Assembly: GCA_016192455.1 (NCBI GenBank) | Contig: JACPUC010000026.1 | Coordinates: 142,902-198,820, forward strand | From: Candidatus Tectimicrobiota bacterium | GTDB lineage: Bacteria; JACPUC01 | Direction: 5' to 3' | Length of the DNA stretch: 55,919 bases | Program-made: the position numbers and the translations under genes | Notes under the pieces: generated by a model | The model's input: the letters and a program-made list of their open reading frames with translations, nothing else | The model's database searches: none | Told to the model about the DNA's origin: nothing | Shown: positions 49,926 through 53,517 of the stretch, piece after piece | Position numbering within the stretch: position 1 is the first letter of the stretch | How the letters are laid out: each line of letters starts with the position of its first letter

Positions 49926-50510
49926 ATGGAGATGCCGCGCAGCAACCTTCCACACCCGCAGCCGCTCGCCGGCTGGACCGGGAATCCCCTGCAAGGTGTT
50001 CCGCCGCCTCGTTACGCCTCACCCTACGCCGCCGGCGCCGCCCTTGGCGGCGTCCTCCTCCTCACCTTCCTGGTGATGGGGCATGGGCTGGGCGCCTCCG
50101 GCGCGTTCGCCCGCCTCGGCGTGGCCCTGCTCGGCTTGGCGGCGCCCGCGGCAACGAAGGCGCACGCCTACTTTTCGCTCTACCTCTCTCCGGACCGCTC
50201 CACCCTGAATGCCTGGATCGTCTATGAGGTAGTCGGCGTTCTCGTCGGCGCGTTCGTCAGCGGCCTGCTTGCCCGCCGCCTGAGGTGGGAGGCGGTACGC
50301 AGCCCCAACGCGCACCGCAGGCTGCGTCTGCCGCTGGCCCTGGTCGGCGGCGTCCTCGTCGGCTTCGCGGCGCGCCTGGCCGGCGGCTGCACGAGCGGCA
50401 TCGGCCTCTCCGGAGGCGCCGTCCTGGCGCTTGCCGGCTGGCTCTTCATCCTCTGTTTCTTCGCCGGCGGCTACCTTGCGGCCGCCGCGGTGCGGAGGGA
50501 ATGGCAATGA
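49926..50510 (+). CDS. YeeE/YedE-family half-size transporter subunit 1
   Basis: 194 aa inner-membrane protein with about four to five membrane segments. The signature is FAARLAGGCTSGIGLSGGAVL with C155, the conserved Cys of the first repeat in YeeE/YedE proteins. Members import thiosulfate (TsuA) or are linked to selenium metabolism. Full-length family members contain both repeats in one chain; here the repeats are in two genes and the second follows with an ATGA overlap. ATG 49926 with AAGGAG 8 nt upstream. Confidence 0.85.
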   Translation: MEMPRSNLPHPQPLAGWTGNPLQGVPPPRYASPYAAGAALGGVLLLTFLVMGHGLGASGAFARLGVALLGLAAPAATKAHAYFSLYLSPDRSTLNAWIVYEVVGVLVGAFVSGLLARRLRWEAVRSPNAHRRLRLPLALVGGVLVGFAARLAGGCTSGIGLSGGAVLALAGWLFILCFFAGGYLAAAAVRREWQ

Positions 50511-51109
50511 TGCCCCTGACCTCGCTGAACTTCTTCTCCCCCTGGCTGGCAACCCCGGCCGCCCTCCTCCTCGGCTTCGGCTTCGGCTTCTGGCTGGAAC
50601 GCGGCGGCCTCGGCAACGCCCGCAAGCTCACCGGCATGTTCTACTTGACCGATTTCGTCGTCGTGCGGGTCATGTTCAGCGCCGTGGTGGTCGCCGCCTT
50701 TGGTCTGGCCCTCTTCCAGGCGCTGGGCATTCTCGACCTGAAGCTGGTCTACCTCCCCCCCCTGGCACTCGGCGGCATCATCATCGGCGGCCTGCTCATG
50801 GGTATCGGGTTCGTCACCGGCGGGTATTGACCGGGAACCTCGGCCGCGGGCGCGGCCACGGGGAAGTGGGATGCCCTGGTGTTTATCGTGGGGATGGTGC
50901 TCGGGGTGTGGGGGTACGGCGCCGGCTATGCGCTCTTCGGGCCGCTGGGAGAGGCGGGTGATCTCGGCGTCATCACGCTGCAGGGCTTGCTGGGACTACC
51001 GACTCTGGTCGTGGTGGTGGCGGCGGCGGCCCTCGCCCTGGTTCTCTTCTGGCTCAGCGCGCGCCTCGAGCGCCCCGCCCGGCAGGAGAAACTCCCTGTC
51101 CAGCAGTAG
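50507..51109 (+). CDS. YeeE/YedE-family half-size transporter subunit 2, candidate selenoprotein (in-frame UGA = Sec108)
   Basis: 200 codons if the TGA at 50828-50830 is read through. Before it lie three membrane segments and the family lead-in GIIIGGLLMGIGFVTGGY; after it the same frame continues PGTSAAGAATGKWDALVFIVGMVLGVWGYG and two more membrane segments to a TAG at 51109. In the family the motif is GGY-C-PGT, so the TGA takes the exact place of the conserved Cys. A hairpin fitting the bacterial SECIS pattern lies at 50842-50857. Start ATG 50507 has GGAGG 8 nt upstream and overlaps the subunit-1 stop (ATGA). Alternatives are a nonsense mutation or a base error; the intact distal frame and the hairpin argue for selenocysteine. 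Confidence 0.78.
50842..50857 (+). promoter_or_regulatory. Candidate bacterial SECIS element
   Basis: GGCCGC-GGGC-GCGGCC, a perfect 6-bp stem with a loop that begins with G. The loop starts 17 nt after the TGA. Flanking CC (50838-50839) and GG (50860-50861) could extend the stem beyond a small internal loop. Bacterial SECIS hairpins lie just 3' of the UGA with a G in the first loop positions. SelB recognition itself is not proven. Confidence 0.55.
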
Positions 51110-51281: not shown

Positions 51282-53414
51282 CTACTCTTCCTCCACCTTC
51301 CGCACCTCGCAGAGATGCCCGATCAGCCACGAGGTTCCCTCGATGGGATCGTACGGCGGTCCGTCGGGGATAACCATGCTGATGTTGCTCTCGAAGCAGC
51401 CGTAATCGGGGGCTGGTTTCTCCGGGTACCACCAGTAGCCGTAAGCGGAAACGACGTCCGGCGGCACGTTTTCCGTCACCTTGGCTCTCTGCTTGCACCG
51501 TCCAAATCCCGTCTCGATCCAAACCCAATCACCCTCGCGGATGCCACGCTCGGCGGCGGCGCGCTGGTGAATCTCGACGGTGGCGACCGGCTTGGTTTTG
51601 CGCAGCGAGGGGGAGTGGCGCTGGCGGCTGTTGAAGAACCGTGCCTCGCGCGGGGCGATGAGCTGAAGCGGATAGGCGCGCCGAACGTCCGAACCGGGGG
51701 CGGGGCTCCGGGGCAGCTCGTGGTGCACCGGCAGGGGTTCGTAGCCGTACCGTTCAAGGAGGGTGGAATACAATTCCACCTTTCCGGTCGGGGTGTTGAA
51801 ACCGTGCTCTTCGTAAGCCTTGTACTTGATGGGAATGGCGAGCCGCCGCTGTTTCTTGAGGTCGTCGAACCTCATGTTCAGGCCGCTGACCTGAAAATCG
51901 AGAAACTCCTCGACACTGTTCCACGGGATAAAATCGTGCGGCAGAAGCTTGCGCGCCCGCATCTCCTTGGCCAGTTCAATGAAAATCTTGTTATCGTCCC
52001 AGGCTTCGCCCAGCGGCTCGATCGCCCGTTCGCTTGCCGGGATGTGCAGGGAATGCCACTCCGGTCCAATCTCCTCGCGCTCCAACCACGTAACCGCGGG
52101 GAGGAAGACGTCGGCCAGCTCCGTGGTGGGCGTCTGGAAACAGTCCACGGCAACGATGAGGTCGAGTCGGCGGAAGGCTTCCCGGACACGCTGTGGGTCG
52201 GGGGTGTTCAAGGCGTAGTTGTTGCCCGTGACGATGGCTCCCTTGACGCCGGAGTGGGCGGAGAGCATCTCGTCGATGACCAGGGAGTTATGACTGGTGG
52301 CCCCGACGCCGTTGGGACCGGTCCAGAGTGGAAACTCCCGAGCCCCGCGGGCCTCCGCCTCGATCGCTGCCGGCAGCCGCCACGCCTTGCCGAAGACCAT
52401 CTCTCCCCTGGACACGAACCCGTCAAGCCGCTTGGGGAGGAGGTTGCCTCCCTGTACGTCGATGTTCCCCGACAGGGCGACCAGCAACGTGATGCCGCGA
52501 CAGGCTTGCGTGGAGTTGGGTTTGCGGGTCAACCCATTGCGGGCAAACATGCAGGCCGGCTTGGTGGTGGCGTACAGCCGCGCCGCCTGCACCAAGCTTT
52601 CAGCCGGAACGCCGGTGATCCGTTCCACCTCACCGGGCGGGTACTTCTGAACGTGTTCCCGTAGCTGCTCGAAGCCGTAACACCAAGCCTTGACGAACGG
52701 CGTATCGTAGAGTTCTTCGTTGATGATGACGTGCATCATGCCCAGCGCCAGGGCCCCATCAGTTCCTGGCCGCACGGGCAGCCACACGTCCGCGCGCCCC
52801 GCCACCGTGGTTTTGCGCGGGTCCACGACGATGAGTTTGGCGCCCCGGTTGCACCCTTCGACGATCTTCTTCCAATAGGGGGGATGGGAAGCCTGAGGAT
52901 TGGTCCCCCACAGGAGGTAGCAGCGGCTGTGATCCAGGTCGTGATAGGCGAAGTGCGTGATCGGGCCCCCGACGGTCACATGATCCGCGACCATTCCCGG
53001 CCCTTCACACCACAGCGGCGTGGTGCTGACGATGTCGGGGCTGCCGAGCGAGCGGGTGAACAGCGTCGACATGATGCACCGGGAGGTTCCAGGGTATCCC
53101 GCGAACGCCACGATGGCTTTCGGGCCGTGTGCGCGGATGATCTGTTCGAGCCCATCGGCAACCCGCGTCAGCGCTTCGGGCCAGGTGATGCGGACCCATT
53201 TCCCTGCTTCCCGCCCGCCCTCTTTCCACAAGGGCGAGGTGACGCGCTGGGGTGAGTAGGTGACTTCGTGAGCATTCGCTCCCTTGATGCAGATGCCACC
53301 TCGATAGACGGGGTCTTCGGGGTCGCCCCTCAGCCCGCGGATGCGGCCCTCCGCAACATCCACCTCCAAATGACAATACATATAACAGTCGCTGCAAATG
53401 CTGTGGCGGATCAT
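51282..53414 (-). CDS. Molybdopterin-dependent oxidoreductase (DMSO reductase/formate dehydrogenase family)
   Basis: 710 aa. N-terminal [4Fe-4S] ligands C7, C10, C14 and C42 (SICSDCYMYC and GGICIKG). The Mo/W ligand position reads VSTTPLWCEGPG with C136, so Cys coordination is expected, as in some formate dehydrogenases and unlike Ser-type DMSO reductases. Later segments LLWGTNPQASHP, VVDPRKTTVAGRAD and the C-terminal GIREGDWVWIETGFG dinucleotide-binding domain are typical. No Tat signal, so cytoplasmic. No iron-sulfur or membrane partner gene is adjacent. ATG 53414 with GGAGG 7 nt upstream. Substrate unknown; acetylene hydratase- or hydroxylase-type roles are also conceivable. Confidence 0.9.
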   Translation of the reverse strand: MIRHSICSDCYMYCHLEVDVAEGRIRGLRGDPEDPVYRGGICIKGANAHEVTYSPQRVTSPLWKEGGREAGKWVRITWPEALTRVADGLEQIIRAHGPKAIVAFAGYPGTSRCIMSTLFTRSLGSPDIVSTTPLWCEGPGMVADHVTVGGPITHFAYHDLDHSRCYLLWGTNPQASHPPYWKKIVEGCNRGAKLIVVDPRKTTVAGRADVWLPVRPGTDGALALGMMHVIINEELYDTPFVKAWCYGFEQLREHVQKYPPGEVERITGVPAESLVQAARLYATTKPACMFARNGLTRKPNSTQACRGITLLVALSGNIDVQGGNLLPKRLDGFVSRGEMVFGKAWRLPAAIEAEARGAREFPLWTGPNGVGATSHNSLVIDEMLSAHSGVKGAIVTGNNYALNTPDPQRVREAFRRLDLIVAVDCFQTPTTELADVFLPAVTWLEREEIGPEWHSLHIPASERAIEPLGEAWDDNKIFIELAKEMRARKLLPHDFIPWNSVEEFLDFQVSGLNMRFDDLKKQRRLAIPIKYKAYEEHGFNTPTGKVELYSTLLERYGYEPLPVHHELPRSPAPGSDVRRAYPLQLIAPREARFFNSRQRHSPSLRKTKPVATVEIHQRAAAERGIREGDWVWIETGFGRCKQRAKVTENVPPDVVSAYGYWWYPEKPAPDYGCFESNISMVIPDGPPYDPIEGTSWLIGHLCEVRKVEEE

Positions 53415-53517
53415 CCCCTGTCCTCCGTTCCGCGGCCTCCCCCCCTGCATCTTGCCTCGCCCGCAGGCACTACGTCAAACCCTTGAGCGCCGAAATCCTT
53501 CCTCAAATCATTGGTAG

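Follow-up and report, generated by a model that had tools for sequence, protein, structure and literature searches.

This locus raises the question of whether a UGA codon midway through the gene for a small membrane protein is a stop, or is read as selenocysteine (Sec) with the help of the hairpin that follows it. The window, meaning the whole stretch of 55,919 nucleotides that was analysed, holds two adjacent genes on the forward strand at this point. The upstream gene (49926..50510) encodes a PmpA-like protein of 194 residues corresponding to the C-terminal half of YeeE, with 83.2 bits to PF04143 (Sulf_transp) and a cysteine, Cys155, in the motif GGCTSG. Its partner (50507..51109) overlaps it by 4 bp and would, read through the UGA, give a PmpB-like protein of 200 residues, corresponding to the N-terminal half of YeeE, with 54.5 bits to PF04143. 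That match covers residues 38-193, spans the UGA, and lies on the other half of the profile from the match of PmpA. A putative Shine-Dalgarno sequence, GGAGGG (50494..50499), is found 7 nt before the ATG at 50507. The UGA itself (50828..50830, forward strand) is codon 108 and stands at the invariant cysteine of the motif G[YF]CPGT.

The first-pass annotation had placed a perfect stem-loop, GGCCGC-GGGC-GCGGCC, at 50842-50857 on the same strand, and both the coordinates and the letters proved to be exact, with GGCCGC at 50842-50847, the loop GGGC at 50848-50851 and GCGGCC at 50852-50857. It had also argued that the distance and the loop agree with the rule for bacterial SECIS elements; 17 nt (50831-50847) do separate the UGA from the loop, and the first base of the loop is a G. 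The element thus has the general features of a bSECIS, a hairpin directly 3' of an in-frame UGA within the gene, with a small apical loop, a G near its start and a set distance to the UGA. In the first 30-48 nt 3' of the UGA the hairpin is the minimum free energy structure, at -13.2 kcal/mol, or -16.9 with a lower stem (RNAfold). This likely extended hairpin, seen by RNAfold only, covers 50838..50863, with CCTC (50838-50841) paired to GGGG (50860-50863) and a 2-nt bulge at 50858-50859. The folding check proposed with the annotation, on 50828-50880 with the UGA included, was uninformative: the hairpin is present in the centroid structure and absent from the minimum free energy structure, and the total energy is ordinary (z 0.19). 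An Rfam search of the hairpin region gave chance matches only and no family. A reading of the hairpin as a terminator was rejected.

How much the hairpin says by itself can be judged from the window. When one set of criteria is applied throughout (a loop of 3-7 nt that begins 16-25 nt after the UGA and has a G within its first two bases), 40 of the 1,385 TGA triplets (2.9%) are followed by an equal or better hairpin in this window, whose GC content is 66%, and the whole window contains 40 perfect 6-4-6 hairpins. About 10% of the synonymous recodings of the window peptide equal the native hairpin, because the codons of Ala-Ala opposite Ala-Ala (GCN-GCN opposite GCN-GCN) are self-complementary. 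Taken alone, the hairpin is weak evidence and only modestly beyond chance, and its significance rests on the homologs.

A peptide-pattern scan using the window protein gave no relatives, and a motif pattern with an in-frame TGA was used instead. In 84,980 species genomes this pattern found 107 stretches, to which genome searches added further ones, and after removal of duplicates there remained 108 distinct genes with TGA in this position (Sec genes) and 30 Cys genes. More than 100 other bacteria thus have a UGA at exactly this codon. They belong to about a dozen phyla, Chloroflexota being the most frequent, and include Rokubacteria/Methylomirabilota, Deltaproteobacteria, Acidobacteriota, Nitrospirota and Spirochaetota as well as Bacillota, Betaproteobacteria, Latescibacterota, KSB1 and SAR324; a plasmid search found no homolog. 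In all 80 of the listed loci the same type of protein is encoded on either side of the TGA. When the pattern allowed TAA, TAG, TGA or TGG at the codon, the three matches in 386 genomes were all TGA, and the reversed pattern had no match in the same number of genomes. In an alignment of 21 diverse members the Sec/Cys column is invariant, with conserved sequence on both sides, which is the picture expected of a selenoprotein gene, a UGA where homologs have Cys between conserved flanks. Sec and Cys proteins are mixed in the protein tree, with at least 10 changes between them, at least 4 of which are forced by well-supported branches; this was a quick tree with long branches, and the number of changes is rough. 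Homologs within a clade are related to each other, and the counts given here are not independent.

The annotation had named two outcomes that would speak against a SECIS, a hairpin equally conserved in Cys homologs and a stem that is not conserved in other UGA homologs, and the comparison went the other way in both respects. The mean energy of the best hairpin is -10.8 kcal/mol in the 108 Sec genes as compared to -2.3 in the 30 Cys genes, and an energy of -5 kcal/mol or lower is reached by 98% and 13% of them, respectively. Relative to synonymous recodings of equal GC3, z is -2.03 for Sec genes and +0.08 for Cys genes. The difference is also seen when the Sec genes are reduced to 25 clusters at 80% identity (z -1.55, Wilcoxon p 6e-8), and the contrast between Sec and Cys at cluster level has a Mann-Whitney p of 1.3e-7. 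A hairpin with a G-led loop follows nearly all of the TGA codons, and in 99 of the 108 Sec genes the distance from the UGA to the loop is 17-20 nt. The closest Cys homolog (L159) shares its genus with a Sec homolog (G412, G413), and in it both wobble pairs of the stem are broken.

In the 10 genes of the clade of the window, the stem has no unpaired position (60 of 60 cells). Its four wobble positions are invariant in these genes, while wobble positions outside the stem vary. Since five of the six pairs never vary here, the covariation comes from other clades, and compensatory changes are hardly present in the window's own. They are clear in the V-A-[VG]-A type (13 Sec genes), where 78 of 78 stem cells are paired, as compared to 24-82% in slid controls. 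In this type the wobble-wobble pair 18-27 is GC in 5 genes, UA in 4, AU in 3 and CG in 1, the pair 15-30 is GC in 9, UA in 3 and CG in 1, and the covariation score was reached by none of 500 shuffles. The 72 genes of the Anaerolineae type fold the region in slightly shifted registers, among them GCCG-GGUC-CGGC. A stem with compensatory changes in UGA homologs that is missing in Cys homologs is what characterises a bSECIS.

The genome of the window encodes SelA, SelB, SelD and tRNA-Sec, as a selenoprotein gene requires. The tRNA-Sec (contig C8) scores 75.5 bits with a gathering score of 47, and selA (491 bits) adjoins selB (366 bits) on contig C23. The selD gene (389 bits; L199, G000:C3:190907-191827) has an in-frame TGA of its own near the start, followed by a hairpin whose loop lies 17 nt after the UGA and begins with GGG, as does the hairpin in the window; the UGA and hairpin of selD are an internal positive control. 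The tRNA-Sec scores 69 bits or higher in 14 of the 15 UGA-bearing genomes searched, the exception being a genome that is 77% complete.

Two other readings of the codon have to be weighed against this evidence. The UGA could be an ordinary stop that leaves a PmpB of 107 residues, or the gene could be broken, and in either case the hairpin would be a by-product of alanine-rich and GC-rich codons, which agrees with its being unremarkable on its own. An ordinary stop is however hard to combine with a frame that is conserved for 92 codons past the UGA and a codon that is TGA and never TAA or TAG. It also fits poorly with a SECIS-specific excess and covariation that are found in Sec and not in Cys homologs, and with a complete Sec machinery, and we regard it as very improbable. 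A changed genetic code, with UGA read as Trp or Cys, would keep the frame open just as well, whatever the residue, but the gene contains a single TGA codon and its partner PmpA ends in TGA (50508-50510). Furthermore, SelA, SelB, SelD and tRNA-Sec are all encoded in the genome and the SECIS accompanies UGA and not Cys codons, which makes a changed code hardly credible. The conservation of the UGA and the hairpin among homologs, the covariation and the Sec machinery together support the SECIS interpretation of the annotation. It is therefore highly likely that the stretch 50828-50863 is a bacterial SECIS and that the gene is that of a selenoprotein, a PmpB-like protein that is likely half of a reduced-sulfur transporter. 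On comparative sequence grounds, the Sec codon, the SECIS hairpin and the Sec machinery can be taken as established. In vivo, the hairpin in the mRNA would recruit the SelB of this genome with Sec-tRNA-Sec, and the UGA at 50828 would be decoded as selenocysteine and not as a stop, giving the 200-residue membrane protein with the motif G-Y-Sec-P-G-T.

The prototype of the bSECIS is that of fdhF in E. coli, and like the element in the window it is a short hairpin in the coding region after the UGA, with a small G-led loop. In fdhF the loop lies 18 nt after the UGA, has the sequence GGUC and is accompanied by a bulged U; the SelB of E. coli needs the GU of the loop and the bulged U in the stem. 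The element in the window differs from this strict type, as its loop is GGGC and its upper stem is unbroken. The GGUC loop of fdhF is found in some relatives of the gene.

The protein family gives an indication of what the selenocysteine may do. In StTsuA, the YeeE of Spirochaeta thermophila (6LEO, 6LEP, 8J4C, 8K1R), the residues Cys293, Cys91 and Cys22 are stacked across the membrane and have been proposed to relay thiosulfate (PMC11073785). Cys91 and Cys293 have been termed indispensable (PMC11582611), and the structure entry 6LEP is titled 'inactive mutant - C91A'. In Serratia, PmpA and PmpB are likewise encoded by two adjacent short genes and represent the halves of YeeE with one conserved Cys each, PmpB matching the N-terminal and PmpA the C-terminal half (PMC11582611); the Serratia PmpB is about 130 residues long, as compared to about 200 for the Sec-containing protein in the window. 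A profile of the 21 members matches StTsuA with an E value of 4e-12 and places the Sec/Cys column, Sec108, on Cys91, as expected for a YeeE/YedE protein of the PmpB type. The AlphaFold model (pLDDT 82.7) has a helix that is broken at Sec108 (helices 88-105 and 109-117). It resembles residues 1-187 of StTsuA with a Z of 9.1-9.7, the next row being at 5.3, although such Z values are common for helical proteins; Foldseek gave an E of 0.3 and a probability of 0.99. From these comparisons of sequence and model, the family, the fold of the N-terminal half and the equivalence of the residues can be considered established as well.

In almost every locus, whether Sec or Cys, a PmpA homolog immediately precedes the PmpB gene, and the Cys of PmpA at the Cys293 site of StTsuA is kept, in 95 matches from Sec loci and 30 from Cys loci. 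The two proteins should together form a split YeeE/YedE pore of the TsuA type. StTsuA is a single chain with three pore cysteines, whereas in the window pair the equivalent of Cys91 would be a selenol, that of Cys293 would stay a thiol, and the Cys22 site is missing. Such a pore would most likely import or relay reduced inorganic sulfur, in the form of thiosulfate, polysulfide or sulfane sulfur, and the lower pKa and better nucleophilicity of selenocysteine may be its advantage over cysteine.

The neighbours of the relatives point in the same direction. In the Anaerolineae-type loci a PhsA-like molybdoenzyme is encoded directly downstream in 52 of 70, with 584 bits to thiosulfate reductase PhsA, which is below the cut-off of 694, and Fe-S and NrfD subunits are present in 28 of the 46 loci whose length allows this to be judged. 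In the other type of locus a rhodanese domain is fused or adjacent in 13 of 28, and in L091 and L158 (also L078, L083 and L114) the Sec PmpB carries a C-terminal rhodanese fusion. The window's own neighbours do not share these links to sulfur. A molybdopterin oxidoreductase gene (51282-53450, minus strand) faces the pair, and its product is nearer to formate dehydrogenase alpha (324 bits) than to PhsA (281 bits), both being below the cut-off. With the sulfur genes seen in relatives and not in the window, the substrate and the benefit of Sec can only be inferred. Judging from the family and the neighbours of relatives, the product most likely transports reduced sulfur species through a pore that contains a selenol.

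It is also conceivable that the protein carries selenium and feeds SelD, as YedE/FdhT would. YedE/FdhT is a member of this superfamily, weak NCBIfam matches to it are seen, and a YedE-like protein from archaea has been linked to selenium transport (cited in PMC11582611). These matches, to the selenium metabolism protein YedE/FdhT (NF033796), are however 18.2 and 48.2 bits against a cut-off of 350. Moreover, selA, selB, selD and tRNA-Sec are on other contigs than the gene pair, and the relatives adjoin PhsA-like molybdoenzymes and rhodaneses, so we consider a selenium transporter unlikely and a transporter of reduced sulfur the better reading. The NCBIfam transporter models matched by the window protein and its relatives were of the TsuA and YedE types, all below the cut-off. 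TsoY (NF047643) was absent from the listed matches, both those of the window protein (at E up to 1) and those of five relatives (at E up to 0.01), and its motif is UxxV, as compared to UPGT here.

A selenoprotein of the YeeE/YedE type has been listed before, with the motif GUxSG, PF04143 and the accession WP_012471001.1 (table in PMC13188914; also PMC9312934). It belongs to the same superfamily, and Sec replaces a pore Cys as in the PmpB of the window. Its GUxSG fits the PmpA half, whereas the Sec described here is on the PmpB side, in G[YF]UPGT; the two are set apart by motif, and not by the site of WP_012471001.1 itself. The G[YF]UPGT site was not found in the compiled selenoprotein lists consulted, although Haft and Tolstoy 2025 may have reported it earlier. 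As the listed motif fits PmpA, the PmpB site is unlisted and the NCBIfam models are below cut-off, the PmpB site (GYUPGT) appears to be new. We think it probable that the PmpB half, with Sec at the gate of the sulfur path, forms a widespread and unlisted selenoprotein family of about a dozen phyla, with several switches between Sec and Cys and one clade with a two-selenol pore.

Selenoproteins are mostly redox enzymes, and transporters with Sec in the pore are rare. Such a pore bears on the way in which proteins of the YeeE type deal with thiosulfate or sulfane sulfur, by a relay of hydrogen bonds or by covalent sulfur transfer, and since Sec and Cys forms occur naturally as pairs in related species, this question of mechanism is directly testable. 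Standard annotation ends genes at the UGA, so both the transporter half and its link to the thiosulfate/polysulfide-type molybdoenzyme of Anaerolineae are easily missed. The homologs also make up a large collection of SECIS elements supported by covariation, from lineages distant from E. coli.

Some variants of the arrangement were also observed. Four loci from Betaproteobacteria (L118, L123, L124 and L146) have a UGA at the PmpB site, and in L123 at least the two halves are fused into a full-length YeeE, whose second half contains GGGCTTG. A more distant relative (L049, genome G235) has a UGA in the motif GGUPGQS, and its genome contains a strong tRNA-Sec. In L059, L134 and L171 the PmpA reads DG-UGA-TSG, 422 nt upstream of the UGA of PmpB (FUPGT), and each of the two UGAs is followed by a hairpin, which suggests that a pore with two selenocysteines is possible in these bacteria.
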